Shown piece after piece: positions 17,782-34,174 of a stretch of DNA of 39,108 nt; the first letter of the stretch is position 1, and every line of letters starts with the position of its first letter. This stretch comes from Pseudolabrys sp. (GTDB lineage: Bacteria > Pseudomonadota > Alphaproteobacteria > Rhizobiales > Xanthobacteraceae). Below the pieces are notes generated by a model. The model made no database searches and had not been told where the DNA came from. It saw nothing but the letters and a program-made list of their open reading frames with translations. The position numbers were made by a program, and so were the translations under genes. The DNA lies in the NCBI GenBank assembly GCA_026125895.1, contig JAHCKG010000036.1, positions 1 through 39,108 on the forward strand, in the 5' to 3' direction.

Positions 17782-18231
17782 TCAGAGCACGCGGCCGTCC
17801 TGAGCTCTACCCTGCTCGGTCCGCGAGGTTCCGGTTCTTTCCCAATACTGCGCGATGCGCGGCAGGCTGAGTTCGATCCAGTCGGCCAACACCCTCACCT
17901 TCTCCGCGGCCTCGCGGCCGAGGGGCGTGAGACTGTATTCGACGTGCGGCGGCACGACCTGATACGCGACGCGCGACACCATGCCGTCGGCTTCGAGTTG
18001 CTGCAGCGTCTGCGCCAGCATGCGTTCGCTGACCCCGCCGATCGTGCGCCGCAGTTCGCTGAAGCGGTGCATGCGCCGTTCCAGAACGATCAGCACCAGC
18101 ACGCCCCAGCGGCTGGTCAGGTGCTTGAGCACATCGCGGGACGGGCAGTTCGCCGCCAGAACGTCGCCGCGCAGCAACTGTTCGGACAGCGGCACGCCGG
18201 CCTCCGGATCGAGATTGTCGTCGCCTGCCAT
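17782..18231 (-). CDS. HxlR-family (QorR-like) transcription regulator
   Basis: This 149-residue winged-helix protein has the HxlR layout: a conserved Cys in NCPSRDVLKHLTSRWGVLVL (Cys 29), then RFSELRRTIGGVSERMLAQTLQQLEADGMVSR (recognition helix and wing) and YSLTPLGRE. The conserved cysteine is the redox/electrophile sensor in studied members such as QorR and HypR. It is divergent from the quinone-reductase-like gene, with a 119-bp gap holding ACTAA/TTAGT repeats. By this layout it probably represses that gene and itself. It starts at the ATG at 18231. Confidence 0.9.
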   Translation of the reverse strand: MAGDDNLDPEAGVPLSEQLLRGDVLAANCPSRDVLKHLTSRWGVLVLIVLERRMHRFSELRRTIGGVSERMLAQTLQQLEADGMVSRVAYQVVPPHVEYSLTPLGREAAEKVRVLADWIELSLPRIAQYWERTGTSRTEQGRAQDGRVL

Positions 18232-18270
18232 GACTTTGATCTCTCACTCCCGGCTCAGGGACTTCTTCAA

Positions 18271-18297
18271 ACTAACATTAGTGTATGTACTTACTAA
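18271..18297. promoter_or_regulatory. Candidate HxlR operator
   Basis: The pentamers ACTAA, TTAGT and ACTAA are arranged as two overlapping dyads: ACTAA-CA-TTAGT (18271-18282) and TTAGT-N10-ACTAA (18278-18297). They lie between the divergent regulator and reductase genes. Confidence 0.5.
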
Positions 18298-18350
18298 AAA
18301 TAATCAAGCTGGTTATGTGGAGGCGACCGACAAACCAGGAGACCTTCCCC

Positions 18351-19199
18351 ATGACCATCGGAATCACCGGCGCCACCGGCCAGCTCGGCCGCCTCATCGT
18401 CAGCCAGCTCAAGGCCAAGGTACCCGCGGCCGACCTCGCCGCCCTCGTTCGCTCCCCCGCCAAGGCGGCCGATCTCGGCACCGCCGCGCGCGAAGCCGAC
18501 TACGCCAAACCGGCAACGCTCGACACCGCGCTCAAGGGCATCGATACGCTGCTGCTGATTTCGTCGAGCGAGGTCGGCCAGCGCGAGGCGCAGCACAAGG
18601 CCGTCATCGCCGCGGCAAAGAAAGCCGGCGTCAAGAGCATCGTCTACACCAGCATCCTGCATGCAGATGCCTCCGCCATCGATCTCGCCGCCGAACATCG
18701 CGCCACGGAGGCCGCCATCAAGGCGTCGGGCCTTGCTTTCACCTTCTTGCGCAACGGCTGGTACGTCGAGAACTACGCCGCCGGCATTCAGGGTGCCGTG
18801 GCAGGCGGCACGCTCTATGGCGCCGCCGGCGACGGCAAGATCTCGGCGGCAGCGCGCGCCGATTATGCCGCCGCGGCGGTGGCGGTGCTGACCACGTCCG
18901 GCCACGACAACAAGACCTACGAACTCGCCGCCGACACGCCGTTCACGCTTGCCGCGCTCGCTGCGGAAGTCTCCCGGCAGACCGGCAAGTCGATCCCCTA
19001 CACCAACCTCAGCGTCGCCGACTATGCGAAGGGCCTCGCCAGCCATGGCGTGCCCGAAGGCTTCGCCAAGATGATCGCCGGCTGGGAAGTGCCGATTGCG
19101 CAAGGCGCGCTGTTCGACGACAGCCGCACTTTGTCGAAGCTGATCGGACGGCCGACCACGCCGCTGGCGGAATCGATCAAGCGCATCCTGAAAAGCTGA
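18351..19199 (+). CDS. NAD(P)H-binding atypical SDR, QorB-like quinone oxidoreductase
   Basis: The 282-residue Rossmann protein starts MTIGITGATGQLGRLIVSQL, with the nucleotide-binding GxTGxLG pattern at residues 6-12. It continues TLLLISSSEVGQREAQHKAVIAAAKKAGVKSIVYTS and FTFLRNGWYVENY, as in the NmrA/QorB family. QorB reduces quinones with NADPH. The ATG at 18351 has AGGAG upstream. It is divergent from an HxlR regulator, the same pairing as the known qorR systems. A strong terminator follows. Confidence 0.9.
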   Translation: MTIGITGATGQLGRLIVSQLKAKVPAADLAALVRSPAKAADLGTAAREADYAKPATLDTALKGIDTLLLISSSEVGQREAQHKAVIAAAKKAGVKSIVYTSILHADASAIDLAAEHRATEAAIKASGLAFTFLRNGWYVENYAAGIQGAVAGGTLYGAAGDGKISAAARADYAAAAVAVLTTSGHDNKTYELAADTPFTLAALAAEVSRQTGKSIPYTNLSVADYAKGLASHGVPEGFAKMIAGWEVPIAQGALFDDSRTLSKLIGRPTTPLAESIKRILKS

Positions 19200-19210
19200 A
19201 TGCTCGCGAC

Positions 19211-19241
19211 GAGCCCCTGCCGGTCTGACCGGCAGGGGCTC
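19211..19241 (+). terminator. Terminator between convergent genes
   Basis: A 13- to 14-bp stem (GAGCCCCTGCCGG / CCGGCAGGGGCTC) is followed by ATTTATAT on the plus strand, 12 bp after the QorB-like stop. It may also stop the opposing AhpD-like transcript, though no T-run follows on that side. Confidence 0.85.
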
Positions 19242-19252
19242 ATTTATATCGT

Positions 19253-19717
19253 TCAGCCTTTCCAGGCGCCGACCACCTGACGCACCGCGACATTGAGCCG
19301 ATTCCAGACATTGATCTGGCCGATCGCGAACAGCAAAGCGGCCATCGCCTGCTCGTCGTAATGCCGCGCCGCCTCGTCCCAGGTCGCATCGTCGATCGGA
19401 TCGGCGCGGTCCGCGCACCGCGTCGCCGCTTCGGTGAGCGCCAGCGCCGCACGCTCGGCGTCGGTGAAATACGGCGTGTCGCGCCAGGCCGCCACGGCAA
19501 AGATGCGCTCGTCGCTCTCGCCGAATTTCTTCAGCGCCCGCGCATGCATATCGACGCAGACGCTGCAGCCATTGATCTGGCTGGCGCGCAGATACACCAT
19601 TTCCAATTGCGCCGGGGACAGACCCTTGTCCTCGGTCGCTTTGCCGAGCGCATGCATGGCACGCATGGCGTCCTCGAGAACGAAAGCGGGATGTTTCATA
19701 CGGGCTTGCATCGTCAT
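19253..19717 (-). CDS. AhpD-like carboxymuconolactone decarboxylase-family protein
   Basis: The 154-residue protein has the peroxidase-type AhpD core with the redox motif CSVC in SQINGCSVCVDMHARAL. Such proteins act in alkylhydroperoxide detoxification or related thiol chemistry. The ATG at 19717 has AAGGAG seven bases upstream. It is divergent from a SnoaL-fused ECF sigma factor, the classic partner of this family in ECF41 loci. A matching CGTCACA-N16-CGTC promoter is visible upstream on its strand. It is therefore probably a direct target of that sigma factor. Confidence 0.93.
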   Translation of the reverse strand: MTMQARMKHPAFVLEDAMRAMHALGKATEDKGLSPAQLEMVYLRASQINGCSVCVDMHARALKKFGESDERIFAVAAWRDTPYFTDAERAALALTEAATRCADRADPIDDATWDEAARHYDEQAMAALLFAIGQINVWNRLNVAVRQVVGAWKG

Positions 19718-19768
19718 TCGTCGTCTCCTTGTTTGCGCCCGCGATGCGGGGCGGGTTGTCATGCCCAT

Positions 19769-19795
19769 GACGAAGCCCGAGCCGGCGATGTGACG
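19769..19795 (-). promoter_or_regulatory. Candidate ECF41-type promoter of the AhpD-like gene
   Basis: On the minus strand CGTCACA (19795-19789) is followed by exactly 16 bases and then CGTC (19772-19769). The published ECF41 promoter is TGTCACA-N16-CGTC by recall, so only the first base differs. The -10 lies about 50 bp before the start codon. Confidence 0.72.
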
Positions 19796-19860
19796 GCCGG
19801 GGTGAAAAAATTTCGGATGGAACCCGGCGGTCCGGCTTTCGACAAAAATTTTGCGTTCGC

Positions 19861-19887
19861 TGTCACGTCCGGCGCTGCCCGAACGTC
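19861..19887 (+). promoter_or_regulatory. Candidate ECF41-type autoregulatory promoter
   Basis: TGTCACG (19861-19867), a 16-base spacer and CGTC (19884-19887) lie 36 bp upstream of the sigma-factor start on its own strand. Six of seven -35 bases and all four -10 bases match the ECF41 pattern. Confidence 0.75.
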
Positions 19888-19923
19888 ATGCCATTGAGTG
19901 CCGACACACCTGGATCGTGACCG

Positions 19924-20784
19924 ATGACCGAAACCGCCATTTTCGCCGAACGTTTTGAGGCCGCCCGCCCGCGCCTGCGCGCGGTCGCCTATCGCATGCT
20001 GGGCTCAAGCGCGGAGGCCGAGGATGCCGTGCAGGAAGCCTGGCTGCGGCTGAGCCGCGCCGGCGGCGACAGCGTCGATAACCTGCCGGCCTGGCTGACA
20101 ACCGTGGTCAGCCGCGTCTGCCTCGACATGCTGCGCGCCCGCAAAGCGCGGCGCGAGGAGCCGATCAGCCCCGGCGTGCCGGAGCCGTCGACCGGCAGCG
20201 CCGAGGACGACGCCCTGCTCGCCGACTCGGTCGGCATGGCGCTGCTCATCGTGCTCGACAAACTGACGCCGGGCGAGCGCGTGGCCTTCGTGCTGCACGA
20301 CATGTTCGACCTGCCGTTCGACGCCATCGCGCCGATCGTCAATCGCTCGCCGGAGGCAGCGCGCCAACTCGCCAGCCGCGCGCGGCGCCGCGTGCAGGGC
20401 GTCACCGATGTCACGGCGGGCGACCTCGACCGCCAGAGCGAGATGGTCGGCGCCTTCATCGCCGCGTCGCGCGACGGCAATTTCGAGGCGCTGCTGACGA
20501 TGCTCGATCCCGATGTGGTGATGCGAGCCGACGACGCTGCCTTCGCCATCGGCGGCATCCGCGAACTGCGCGGCGCCAAGGCGGTGGCAACGAGCTTCAA
20601 CGGCCGCGCCCGCGCCGCGCGCCCGGCGCTGGTCGATGGCCTGCCCGCCTTCGTCGTGTTCCTGGGCGGCTATTTGCGCATCGTCGTGATGCTGAGCTTC
20701 ACCGGCGGCCGGATCGCCGGCATCGACGCCGTTGCCGATCGCGCGCGGCTCGGCAATTTCGATATCGAACTGCTCGATGAGTAA
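19924..20784 (+). CDS. ECF sigma factor with fused SnoaL-like domain (ECF41/SigJ type)
   Basis: The 286-residue protein has sigma region 2 (about 8-77, RLRAVAYRMLGSSAEAEDAVQEAWLR), a linker with GVPEP (84-88, a variant of the conserved WLPEP) and region 4 (about 108-155, LTPGERVAFVLHDMFDLPFDAIAPIV). A C-terminal SnoaL-like domain (about 165-286) controls activity in this class in place of an anti-sigma factor. The usual DGGGR motif seems degenerate here (RADDAAFA), so signal sensing may differ. It is divergent from an AhpD-like gene, with ECF41-type promoters on both strands between them. The ATG at 19924 matches the family start. Confidence 0.93.
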   Translation: MTETAIFAERFEAARPRLRAVAYRMLGSSAEAEDAVQEAWLRLSRAGGDSVDNLPAWLTTVVSRVCLDMLRARKARREEPISPGVPEPSTGSAEDDALLADSVGMALLIVLDKLTPGERVAFVLHDMFDLPFDAIAPIVNRSPEAARQLASRARRRVQGVTDVTAGDLDRQSEMVGAFIAASRDGNFEALLTMLDPDVVMRADDAAFAIGGIRELRGAKAVATSFNGRARAARPALVDGLPAFVVFLGGYLRIVVMLSFTGGRIAGIDAVADRARLGNFDIELLDE

Positions 20785-20790
20785 GGGAAG

Positions 20791-21450
20791 TCAGCGAGTC
20801 AGTCCGAGGCCGCGCAGATAGATCAGCACCTCGGCCTCGAGCAGTTCATCCGGTGCCATGGGTAATGTGCGTCGCGCCCGGTCGCCCCGCCCGAACAGCG
20901 AGGCAATGCCGTGCGTCATCGACCAGATATGCAGCGCCACCATCAGCGCCGGAGGCCGCTCGCCAGCCGGCAACGTCACGACCAGCCGCTCCGCCGCGGC
21001 GCGCAGCACGGCGAAGGCGTTGTCGGCGGCGCTGCGCAGTTGTGGATCGGTGTCGGGTGCGACGCCGGCTTCGAACATCGCCGAGTAATAAGCCGGCTTG
21101 TCGCGGGCGAATTCGAGATAGGCCTTGCCGAGCCGGTTGAGCGCGGCCATCGCGTCCGGCCGGCCCTCGTCCCAGGCTTTCGCCAGTGCATCCGCGAATA
21201 ATTCGAAGCCGCGCCGGGCGACGTCTGCGATCAACTCCTCACGGCTCTTGAAGTGGCGATACGGCGCCGCCGGCGACACGCCAGCCCAGCGCGCGGCATC
21301 GGCGAAGGTGAAACCAGCCGGGCCTTTCTCGGCGATGAGTTCCAGCGCCGCGCGGACCAGCGCCTCTTTCAGGTTACCGTGGTGATAGCCGCGCGGGCCG
21401 CCGTCGCCCCCGCCCGGGGGGCCGTCACGGTCGTGTTTGGTCCACCTCAT
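20791..21450 (-). CDS. TetR/AcrR regulator with WHG-type C-terminal domain
   Basis: This 219-residue repressor has a Gly/Asp-rich N-terminal tail, then GYHHGNLKEALVRAALELIAEKGPAGFTFADAARWAGVSPAAPYRHF, the TetR helix-turn-helix of the YHHGNLR type. The C-terminal ligand domain has the LHIWSMTHGIASL pattern typical of the WHG group. It is divergent from doxX. A dyad at 21466-21484 lies just upstream of its start and matches two sites upstream of the DUF2852 gene, so it may control all three genes. The ATG at 21450 has only a weak ribosome site. Confidence 0.9.
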   Translation of the reverse strand: MRWTKHDRDGPPGGGDGGPRGYHHGNLKEALVRAALELIAEKGPAGFTFADAARWAGVSPAAPYRHFKSREELIADVARRGFELFADALAKAWDEGRPDAMAALNRLGKAYLEFARDKPAYYSAMFEAGVAPDTDPQLRSAADNAFAVLRAAAERLVVTLPAGERPPALMVALHIWSMTHGIASLFGRGDRARRTLPMAPDELLEAEVLIYLRGLGLTR

Positions 21451-21465
21451 GCGCGGCTCGCCCTC

Positions 21466-21484
21466 ATGTGAAGGGCCTTTACAT
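21466..21484. promoter_or_regulatory. 19-bp operator-like dyad between tetR and doxX (site 3)
   Basis: ATGTGAAGGGCCTTTACAT, with C and G flanking to extend the dyad, pairs at nine of ten positions per arm. It fits the same ATGTNAA-N5-TTTACAT consensus as 17481-17499 and 17521-17539. It lies 15 bp upstream of the TetR start codon. Confidence 0.68.
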
Positions 21485-21568
21485 GAATCGGGTGGGCCCG
21501 TCGATGGCCGATGAGGTATGTCGGTATGGCCTACCGCTCAACGCGGCGGCACACTGGAGGGACGTCCG

Positions 21569-21973
21569 ATGGCTGTCACAATTTCAATCCTGGTCGCGCG
21601 GCTGATCTTCGGCGCGGTTTTCGTCATGGCCTTCGTCTTCAAGTTCGCCGATATGCCGGCGACGGCCAATTTCATCGCTGCAGCCGGATTTCCGATGCCG
21701 ATGGTGCTCGCCTGGCTCGCCGCGTTCTTCGAAGTCGCGCTCGCCGCCGCGTTCCTCACCGGCGCGTTCTTCTCCTACGCGTCTTATCTTGCCGCGGCCT
21801 ACGTGATCTTCCTCGGCTTCGCCTTTCACGGCCCCTCGCACTGGGCCGGCAATCAGGCGGAGTTCGGGTTCTTCGTCGATCACTTCACGTTCATGGCCGG
21901 ATTGCTGTTCGCCGCCGCCTATGGTCCGGGCGACAAACTGGTCTGGCGGATCGGCCAGACGCGCGCTGGCTAG
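21569..21973 (+). CDS. DoxX-family membrane protein
   Basis: The 134-residue protein has four hydrophobic helices. It starts ISILVARLIFGAVFVMAFVFKF and has the DoxX pattern AAAGFPMPMVLAWLAAFFEVALA. It ends with a short cytosolic tail. DoxX proteins are small inner-membrane proteins linked to redox or oxidative-stress complexes; the exact role is unknown. The ATG at 21569 has GGAGG eight bases upstream. It is divergent from a TetR gene. Its TAG stop overlaps the TAG of the convergent ogt gene in the four bases CTAG. Confidence 0.88.
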   Translation: MAVTISILVARLIFGAVFVMAFVFKFADMPATANFIAAAGFPMPMVLAWLAAFFEVALAAAFLTGAFFSYASYLAAAYVIFLGFAFHGPSHWAGNQAEFGFFVDHFTFMAGLLFAAAYGPGDKLVWRIGQTRAG

Positions 21974-22545
21974 CGGCGCAGTTCGAGCGGCAAAGCGTCG
22001 AACAAGGTCGGCCCGCCCGGCTGCGCGCCTTCGATGGTGAGCAGCTTGAGCTTGGTCACCACCCCGCCCGGCGCGGAGAAGCCACCGGTTTTCGCGCCGC
22101 TGCGGTCGCTCGCGGCCATGACGCGATGGCACGGCATGACGACGGGGCACGGGTTCTGGCCCATGGCCTGACCGACGGCGCGGGCCAGGGTCTTGTCGCC
22201 GAGCCGCGCGGCGACTTCGCCATAGGTCAACGTCTCGCCGGGTGGAATCTGCCGCACGATTTTATAAACACGGGCGTTGAATTCCGGCGTTTGGCTGTCG
22301 TCGATGGCGATGTCGCGAAGGTCGCGCTTCTCGCCATTGAGCAAGGCGACGATGCCCTGGATCGCCTGCTGCACCGGCGGCGGCGGCACAGCCTCACCGG
22401 CCTGCGGAAAACGTTTCATCAGGCGGCGGCGCGTCGCTGCGGTATCAATCTCCGGCAACTGCACACCGATGAGGCCGCGCTCGTTCCAGGCAACGCCGCA
22501 GGCGCCGATGGCCGTGTCGAAAAGGGTGAAGGCTTGCTCGCTCAT
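21970..22545 (-). CDS. ogt: Methylated-DNA--protein-cysteine methyltransferase
   Basis: This 191-residue suicide enzyme removes alkyl groups from O6 of guanine. The active-site segment NPCPVVMPCHRV has the acceptor Cys at 139. The DNA-binding helix-turn-helix precedes it (FNARVYKIVRQIPPGETLTYGEVAARLGD). The N-terminal ferredoxin-like part (1-85) is short, with no AdaA domain, so this is an Ogt-type stand-alone enzyme. The ATG at 22545 has AAGG just upstream; another in-frame ATG 12 bases earlier has none. It is convergent with doxX. Confidence 0.93.
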   Translation of the reverse strand: MSEQAFTLFDTAIGACGVAWNERGLIGVQLPEIDTAATRRRLMKRFPQAGEAVPPPPVQQAIQGIVALLNGEKRDLRDIAIDDSQTPEFNARVYKIVRQIPPGETLTYGEVAARLGDKTLARAVGQAMGQNPCPVVMPCHRVMAASDRSGAKTGGFSAPGGVVTKLKLLTIEGAQPGGPTLFDALPLELRR

Positions 22546-22614
22546 GAGCCTTAACATGGCGCCGTCGCGATCAATCCGCCACCCGCTTTCTGGGGCCATC
22601 CTCAGGCGCCATTC

Positions 22615-32809: not shown

Positions 32810-34174
32810 CTATCCGGCCACCGCCACATTGCGCAGCATCGCCCCCACCTGCTCCCGCATCGCCGCGACGTTGCGATGGACGCGGGTTTTGTAGCGGGCC
32901 ACCGCGTCGCGATCGACCATGAAGAACTGCTGCTCCGGATAGGTCCGGCCGAAGATATCGATCAGCATCGAACGGAACTTGCCGGACACGATGCCGGGCA
33001 TGCGGTTCGACGGCTCCTCGCTGTAGGCGGCGTATTCGGCCGCCGTCAGCGCGCACAGCAGCGGGTGCAGCCGTGCCGAGTGCACCCTCCTGTGGCGCTG
33101 GATGGTGGCGATGGTCCGGTCGAGCGCAAGCTCCGGGCCGATGTCGGCGCCGATCTGCAAGGGCTGGTCGAGGTGCGCCTCGGTCAGCGGAAACTGCTCG
33201 ATCAGCCAATCGCCGAGATGCACGGCGTTGGAGCGGCCGCGGCCGTAGATGCGGATGTCGTCTTCATAGGGCGCGTACCAGAGGTCGAGCCGGTCGATGA
33301 CCCGCTCGATCATCGCCCGGGGGATCAGTTCGCGATAGGCGGTGCCGAAGATGCCGATGGCCGATTTCGCCTTCGCCAGGATGCGGACGATGTCGTCGCT
33401 CAGCAGCGGCTGGAACATGGCGTTGCCGACGCCGATGACGACGAGGTCATAGTCGGCCCTCGCCTCGTCCATGCGCTCGCGCAAGGTGCGGAAGGTCATG
33501 TGATCGACCTGCGCCTCGCCCGGCAGCAACGCATTGATCATCGACAGGCCGAGACGGTCGCCGAAGTTGCCGGCATCGCTGTCCGACACCACCGCGACGT
33601 GACACGGCACCACCGGCGCGACGCGGCCCGATGGCGTCAGCCGCATCAGCATCTCGGAGTCGCCGACCGGGGCCATGGCTTCGATGCGGAAGCTATAGCG
33701 GTCGAACAAGGTAATGAGATCGATGTAGCTCAGATGATTGGCGAAGCCCTGCGCCGCACGGACCTCGCCGCCGACGAGATCCGCCGGGTGATAGCTGAGG
33801 ATGACGTCGCGGCCGCAGAAGCGCAGATGCGTGAACAGCGCTTCGAGATCGGCGATCTTTTCGACGACGCCGAGCAAGACGACGACGTCGCATTCGGTCG
33901 CGGCCCTGGTCGGAAACTCGGCGCCGGTCAGATCGTGGATCAGCGAACCCTTGTCGTGGGCGAGCCGGTCGGCCGCTTCATAGGAGCAGCCGAACGGCAC
34001 CAGATCGCGCAAGGTCTCGCCGCCGCCACCGCCGATATCGAGAATGCGGGCGCCGGCCGGAATGAACTGCGCGGCAAGCTGTGCGCGCGGATCGTGCCGC
34101 GACGGCGCATCCGGCCGGCGCGCTTCGTCATGCACGAGCTTGAGCGCGAGATTTGCGTTGACCTGAAGCGCCAT
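32810..34174 (-). CDS. Two-domain protein: SAM methyltransferase-like plus polysaccharide pyruvyl-transferase-like
   Basis: This 454-residue protein joins two enzyme-like domains. Residues about 30-180 look like a class I methyltransferase: motif I is ARILDIGGGGGETLRDLVP (42-60), with later CDVVVLLGVVEKIADLEALF. Residues about 190-430 resemble polysaccharide pyruvyl transferases: HVAVVSDSDAGNFGDRLGL (NxGD at 203-206), a GVGNAM loop, GIFGTAYREL, SARLHPLLCAL (366-376) and a C-terminal YPEQQFFMVDRDAV. The pairing suggests a role in cap or surface-glycan modification, but I know no characterised member. A perfect TTAA-N7-TTAA site lies 26-40 bp upstream. It is separated from ymdB by 36 bp. Confidence 0.75.
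   Translation of the reverse strand: MALQVNANLALKLVHDEARRPDAPSRHDPRAQLAAQFIPAGARILDIGGGGGETLRDLVPFGCSYEAADRLAHDKGSLIHDLTGAEFPTRAATECDVVVLLGVVEKIADLEALFTHLRFCGRDVILSYHPADLVGGEVRAAQGFANHLSYIDLITLFDRYSFRIEAMAPVGDSEMLMRLTPSGRVAPVVPCHVAVVSDSDAGNFGDRLGLSMINALLPGEAQVDHMTFRTLRERMDEARADYDLVVIGVGNAMFQPLLSDDIVRILAKAKSAIGIFGTAYRELIPRAMIERVIDRLDLWYAPYEDDIRIYGRGRSNAVHLGDWLIEQFPLTEAHLDQPLQIGADIGPELALDRTIATIQRHRRVHSARLHPLLCALTAAEYAAYSEEPSNRMPGIVSGKFRSMLIDIFGRTYPEQQFFMVDRDAVARYKTRVHRNVAAMREQVGAMLRNVAVAG

Follow-up and report, generated by a model that had tools for sequence, protein, structure and literature searches.

How does a sigma factor share control with its likely target when the two genes are transcribed away from each other, and are the promoters that lie between them two separate switches or the remains of a single one? 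The question is raised by a contig of Pseudolabrys sp. (assembly GCA_026125895.1, contig JAHCKG010000036.1, positions 1 to 39,108; we refer to this whole stretch of 39,108 bases as the window), where a gene for a SnoaL-fused sigma factor stands divergent from a gene for an AhpD-like protein. An earlier note on this DNA described a 206-bp gap between the two genes that holds a facing pair of ECF41-type promoters, one per gene and both with 16-base spacers. The gap is as described, running from the start codon of the AhpD-like gene (ATG 19717) to that of the sigma gene (ATG 19924), and so is the presence of the pair: exact matches to YGTCACR-N16-CGTC occur twice in the window, where 0.16 are expected and none of 100 shuffles reaches two.

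The two promoters do not face each other, however. The partner-gene promoter, CGTCACA-N16-CGTC at 19769..19795, lies on the minus strand and the sigma-gene promoter, TGTCACG-N16-CGTC at 19861..19887, on the plus strand, 63 bp before the start codon. Each is aimed at its own gene, with the -35 elements inside, 65 bp apart, and the -10 elements outside, so that the pair is back to back; it is in relatives of the window that such pairs do face. Experimentally supported ECF41 promoters include TGTCACA with CGTC in R. sphaeroides and with TGTT in B. licheniformis (PMC3426412, in the part consulted), and one of like form for S. meliloti RpoE9 (PMC6180224, likewise). Measured against TGTCACA-N16-CGTC, each -35 in the window is one base off. 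To call both sites near-perfect, as the note did, is justified for the partner promoter (25.1 bits, near the consensus of the relatives) but not for the sigma promoter, which scores a weak 8.9 bits and is exceeded by two window sites without known role, at 34103 and 32036, although the scoring matrix was built on relatives' sites with GTCACA and hence penalises the GTCACG found here.

The partner gene (19253..19717, minus strand) was correctly assigned to the carboxymuconolactone decarboxylase (CMD) family: both Pfam PF02627 (E 9.8e-22) and NCBIfam ahpD_dom (E 1.1e-16) detect an AhpD-like domain, and the sequence keeps the CxxCxxxH of AhpD-like proteins. We set its start at ATG 19717 because GGAG precedes this codon and because of its position downstream of the promoter; the start listed for the open reading frame, 19768, is upstream of the predicted transcript start and fits less well. 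An adjacent CMD, oxidoreductase or epimerase gene is a feature of ECF41 loci that the divergent CMD gene reproduces, as is the lack of an anti-sigma factor nearby, none being detected by Pfam or NCBIfam among seven proteins scanned at 17782-22599. Further along, at 17782-19199, genes for an HxlR-type regulator and an NmrA/NAD(P)-binding protein are transcribed away from each other, and the DNA between them contains no exact ECF41 motif. The NmrA gene (18285-19199) was considered as a second target and rejected, since no exact motif precedes it and it pairs with the HxlR gene.

The sigma factor itself (19924..20784, plus strand, 286 aa) consists of sigma2, a linker with GVPEP, sigma4 and a C-terminal SnoaL/NTF2-like domain. 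Regions 2 and 4 are detected by Pfam and the protein passes the general ECF model of NCBIfam (TIGR02937, 67.3 versus 42.9 bits), falling short of the nearest subfamily models (SigJ, 235 of 271; SigX4, 215 of 323; SigI, 173 of 317). Among proteins of known structure, SigJ of M. tuberculosis is the nearest in sequence (146.4 bits). A structure model, for which 61 of 72 eligible related sequences were used alongside the window protein, has a mean pLDDT of 89.9 and a pTM of 0.58, and its C-terminal domain matches NTF2/ketosteroid-isomerase-like folds; Foldseek places SigJ (5xe7) first, with an E-value of 6.5e-13 and a TM of only 0.33 over the whole chain, and SigG1 next. Given the low pTM and the TM of 0.33 to SigJ, the arrangement of the domains is unsure. 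The matches to SigJ and to NTF2-like proteins nonetheless point to the C-terminal extension of ECF41 factors and, by the model, bear out the SnoaL fusion described earlier; at an E of 0.01, 52 of the 62 members scanned match Pfam SnoaL_2, the window protein itself being without a match.

Other hallmarks of ECF41 are absent from the window protein: in place of the linker WLPEP it has GVPEP, and it contains neither DGGG, for the DGGGR/K of the extension, nor NPxKL, for the NPDKL near the C-terminus (the latter named for ECF41 in PMC7730460, in the part consulted). The changed linker and the missing DGGGR had been read as peculiarities of this protein; both are real, but they mark a whole clade. 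W-x-P-[ED]-P, DGGG (as DGGG[KVR]) and NP[DE]KL are all present in 22 of 22 canonical relatives (L019-L040, the set in which canonical motifs were checked), whereas DGGG or NPxKL occurs in 0 of 8 window-clade proteins and, among the matches listed, in 0 of 73 full-length sigma factors from the scan described below, three of which have a WLPEP-like linker. (Four short proteins and L072, on account of a length limit, are left out of the 73; at the loci of four of the 73 the gap is not 8.) When 150 kin genomes were searched, eight sigma factors including the window's stood apart, the lowest at 284.9 bits and the next match at 158.7. In a tree of 117 sigma factors (without L202 and without L199, which was too short) the 23 canonical rows form one clade with an SH-aLRT of 100; the tree is a quick search with many weak forks and long end branches for L033, L038, L105 and L088. 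The window sigma factor belongs to a clade apart from canonical ECF41, and we call it ECF41-like because its motifs fail part of the ECF41 definition. In ECF41 the linker and C-terminal motifs are described as making contact (PMC7730460, in the part consulted); their absence here suggests that another contact takes the place of this one.

All eight clade members from the kin genomes carry two promoters, facing or back to back, upstream of the sigma gene. In six (L013-L018) the promoters face each other and interlock, the -10 elements forming CGTC-N8-GACG; in the other two, the window and L012, they are back to back. Seven of the eight have a matched CMD gene next to the sigma gene. The exception is L018, which has the module but no CMD match alongside; one can make out the beginning of a CMD-like frame in its sequence, so the partner gene has perhaps been broken or replaced.

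How widespread is this arrangement? We scanned one genome per species for a facing pair, with a query that fixes the consensus letters, allows a gap of 0-20 bp and leaves gap length and neighbouring gene free. The scan returned at least 119 stretches and at least 80 readable loci, from at least five phyla (Pseudomonadota, Actinomycetota, Chloroflexota, Acidobacteriota and Myxococcota). Among the matches listed, the two -10 elements are separated by exactly 8 bp at 75 of 80 loci (the other gaps being 5, 9, 10, 11 and 11), and 78 of the 80 have a window-like sigma gene, in some cases partial; those without, again among the matches listed, are L085, with a gap of 5, and L093, where the module sits at the end of the stretch. 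Most positions inside the gap vary and its length is constant, and the module is nearly symmetric over 62 bp, with core letters fixed by the query. Modules with a gap of 8 share descent, so the 75 are not 75 independent events.

Starting from the protein instead, searches of 150, 385 and 397 genomes, partly overlapping, yielded 23 distinct clade members above 200 bits. The module is present in 18 of these, always with a gap of 8 and spacers of 16/16 where gaps of 5-11 and spacers of 15-17 were allowed; the 18 include L198, whose partner -10 reads CGTT, and L199, with a stop in the sigma frame. The remaining five comprise the two back-to-back loci, L160 with the partner promoter only, and L200 and L201 with neither promoter: in the roughly 300 bases examined before their sigma genes there is no ECF41 motif, and the promoter may have changed. 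At L160 the intact partner promoter is faced by CGTT in the 8-bp register with no sigma -35, possibly a second route of decay. The system is rare, the module (at most one mismatch) being found in 1 of 385 genomes of the class and a clade sigma factor above 200 bits in 3 of 385.

The interlocking reaches into the sigma leader. At L016, for example, the sigma gene's Shine-Dalgarno-like GGAGG sits inside the spacer of the opposing promoter, which makes sigma leader and partner promoter the same DNA. At L015, to take another case, the partner -35 reads ATGTGAC on the sigma strand, in which a stop comes directly after a start codon, nine bases ahead of where the sigma gene starts; this may be incidental or may affect translation of the sigma factor.

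On the other side of the module the gene is less constant. We considered 80 module loci, namely 74 scan loci with a gap of 8 and a sigma gene, among the matches listed, together with L013-L018. In 50 of the 80, again among the matches listed, the gene on the far side of the module is CMD-like. For 7 of the other 30 the flank, at 313 bases or less, is too short to judge. Pfam matched 15 of 20 candidate reading frames from non-CMD loci (one per locus, chosen by length and position), to MFS, glyoxalase, PNPOx, NmrA/NAD-binding, ABC ATPase, MMPL, TrmO_N, DUF1059 and GH16 families. The partner changes while the module is kept. Transporter genes lie behind the module at L046 and L069 (both MFS), L084 (MMPL) and L095 (ABC ATPase), and the switch seems to have been attached there to efflux-type genes.

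Where would transcription begin? In 44 relatives' promoters (one per locus, from 44 of 49 loci, taking the last match within 1.5 kb upstream of the sigma gene) a YR initiator signature stands at a fixed distance, with a pyrimidine at the eighth base after CGTC in 40 of 44 and a purine at the ninth in 39 of 44, and we infer that the +1 is nine bases after CGTC. The RpoE9 promoter of S. meliloti, as printed in the part of PMC6180224 consulted, ends at just that base, which may well be its start. The consulted part of PMC3426412 gives leaders of 22 and 23 bases from the mapped G in the text, as against 31 and 32 in its Table 5, a 9-base difference that would fit a table counting from the -10. In the window the predicted starts are 19760 on the minus strand for the partner gene and 19896 on the plus strand for the sigma gene, the latter giving a 28-nt leader; the base at the predicted +1 is G at both promoters, in the window as in L012. 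In the module, the ninth base after CGTC is the G of the opposing GACG, that is, the first base of the opposing -10. The predicted opposed starts are 9 bp apart and the transcripts would not overlap. A gap of exactly 8 bp would follow, because any other length shifts the initiator off the G of GACG.

If the window descends from such a module, traces of it might be found around its two promoters. The sigma promoter has kept the offset of 63 bp that is commonest in module loci (50 of 80, among the matches listed), and opposite it, at 19896..19922 on the minus strand, lies a decayed mirror half, with the -35 kept as GGTCAC and the -10 reading ACTC rather than CGTC. Its score is reached or exceeded by 8.3e-4 of the 78,092 window positions (2.5e-3 in L012). 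The partner promoter sits 127 bp upstream of the module's ancestral spot. A weaker trace accompanies it at 19757..19772, a mirrored -10 pair TGTC-N8-GACG in the ancestral 8-bp register with no sigma-side -35; of the 705 GACG in the window, 7 have a TGTC so spaced, and the absent sigma half has a score at the 2.6% level (for L012, 8.7%). Two module-like sites 127 bp apart might have arisen by tandem duplication of the whole module, which we rejected: outside the elements the window copies are identical at 15 of 49 positions (shuffle p 0.36) and those of L012 at 11 of 49 (p 0.84). Flanking identity being at chance, we claim only that the partner promoter was relocated. L012 is the window's sister sigma factor (92% identical), and in the tree the two are nested among module rows, with the forks that place the window there below the 95 level. 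Judged by these sequence traces, the window pair most likely descends from a face-to-face, interlocked promoter. That the halves came apart here suggests that each is a working promoter, and by promoter score the balance in the window appears tilted towards the enzyme.

Does the sigma factor have targets elsewhere? The genome holds 34 sites of the form GTCACR-N16-CGTC, against 16 for the reversed pattern, and 8 exact TGTCAC-N17-CGTC sites against 2; in the sister genome G028 the former pattern gives 43 against 21. For all this excess, the regulon scan that the earlier note had suggested produced no convincing further target among the 30 of 34 sites that were scored, bearing in mind that the matrix penalises GTCACG and that a target of that form could be missed. 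Only one of these sites outside the window, L229 (21.2 bits), falls within the module score range; it lies inside a histidine-kinase gene and was set aside. The runners-up, L220 (12.6 bits) and L207 (11.9), score less than any module site, the minimum there being 13.4 bits. The sites L220 and L223 are covered by no long reading frame, or by none at all.

The reading we prefer, at a probability of about 0.7, is that of a self-activating ECF41-like sigma factor with one divergent AhpD-like target, whose ancestral two-way, interlocked promoter has been undone in the window lineage. The sigma factor would activate itself and its AhpD-like neighbour, most likely as canonical ECF41 factors activate the COE gene or operon (PMC3426412, in the part consulted); both activations, already proposed in the note, are made probable by an exact site before each gene. 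In most sampled clade members the two genes would be driven by one palindromic, bidirectional, sigma-specific promoter built of two facing TGTCACA-N16-CGTC elements, such that either transcript would begin at the opposing -10, on its first base. Polymerase carrying the sigma factor could then occupy the module in one direction at a time, yielding one message or the other, which would tie synthesis of target and sigma factor to one shared site and cap self-amplification. In the window lineage, with the sigma half still at the ancestral place, its mirror decayed and the enzyme promoter moved, the two promoters would fire independently and the competition would be gone. From the motifs, their geometry and spread in the sample, the clade and its nesting, all of which are observed, we infer that the window sigma factor recognises the sites, where transcription starts, that the two directions exclude one another, and what purpose the coupling serves. 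A bolder version, to which we would give somewhat less than even odds, is that a clade spanning at least five phyla is run by a purpose-built interlocked promoter, each firing of which makes sigma factor or target and never both, as a brake on self-activation from which the window is a natural escape.

Imagine instead that this were an ordinary ECF41 locus, with two independent divergent promoters whose fixed geometry is simply inherited and without consequence in itself. The modules are indeed homologous within one clade, the window promoters are themselves separate, and promoters before both genes have been tabulated for such loci, 36 sigma and 41 partner promoters having been counted in 55 divergent ECF41 loci in 2012 (Table 4 of PMC3426412, in the part consulted). 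Shared ancestry does not readily explain, however, why the length of 8 is kept across at least five phyla though most bases of the gap vary, or why the module stays when partner genes differ, and we consider this account unlikely. A point against the preferred reading comes from E. coli. Exclusion of one polymerase by another at symmetric promoters is known there (PMC12825309, in the part consulted), but basal activity at the five bidirectional promoters tested was too low for polymerases to compete, so that exclusion may matter only under induction.

The near symmetry over 62 bp (its core letters set by the query) would also suit an operator for a dimeric regulator, perhaps a dimer of the sigma factor itself through its NTF2-like domain, with only one half serving as a promoter; those who described ECF41 raised such a dimer as hypothetical (PMC3426412, in the part consulted). 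Yet each half matches a known ECF41 promoter including the spacer, and in the window and L012 the halves stand apart, each before its own gene, with the mirror of the sigma half decayed, which leaves this idea very improbable. Nor do we put much weight on the order of events being the reverse, with the back-to-back arrangement ancestral and interlocking acquired later: only two back-to-back loci were seen and the forks near them are modestly supported, but both lie inside module rows and a decayed mirror occupies the module's place, so we regard a reversed order as highly unlikely.

If the interlocked promoter works as we propose, what would it mean? In the part of the literature consulted, accounts of bidirectional promoters deal with E. 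coli polymerase generally; the module seems tied to one alternative sigma factor and fixed to the base pair across phyla, the sigma factor being at once its only input and one of the two products it would give. Through it one could test cleanly how positive feedback is affected when polymerases compete, with the window as a naturally uncoupled version. In addition, many SnoaL sigma factors that do not have the known regulatory motifs are set apart, as one large clade, from canonical ECF41. We found no description of the interlocked geometry in the consulted parts of the ECF41 literature, including PMC3426412, PMC7730460, PMC8999054, PMC6180224 and PMC9205884; a word search of PMC3426412, within the same bounds, returned no statement of overlapping or facing geometry.

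Among known systems, the locus most resembles ECF41 factors with their COE partners (Ecf41Bli, Ecf41Rsp and S. meliloti RpoE9), with which it has in common a SnoaL-like extension, a CMD partner, TGTCACA-N16-CGTC promoters, no anti-sigma gene seen nearby and apparently a single target. It differs in that the window sigma factor lacks WLPEP, DGGG and NPxKL and is divergent from its partner, and in that nearly all canonical relatives whose upstream DNA was read carry just one motif, at a distance of several hundred bases before the sigma gene, whereas descent from an interlocked two-way promoter is most likely for the window. ECF56, represented by SigG1 of Streptomyces tsukubaensis, likewise has a SnoaL-type C-terminal domain without NPDKL (PMC7730460, in the part consulted), and its fold match (7qh5) comes next after two SigJ chains, but SigG1 has a co-transcribed antagonist, RsfG (same source), and its sequence match to the window sigma factor is far weaker than that of SigJ (42.5 versus 146.4 bits). 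The prokaryotic bidirectional promoters of Warman et al. (PMC12825309, in the part consulted) share with those of the window's relatives a pseudo-symmetric build, opposed starts and one polymerase at a time, and the start separation of 9 bp predicted for the relatives is close to their 10-bp class. Opposed -10 elements that would exclude two polymerases are found, by sequence, in 18 of 23 relatives and no longer in the window, whose two promoters stand apart. Unlike those promoters, the relatives' module would rely on an alternative sigma factor that has its own transcript begin at the site, and each of its strands has a full set of -35 and -10 elements; it occurs in at least five phyla and goes with one sigma clade.
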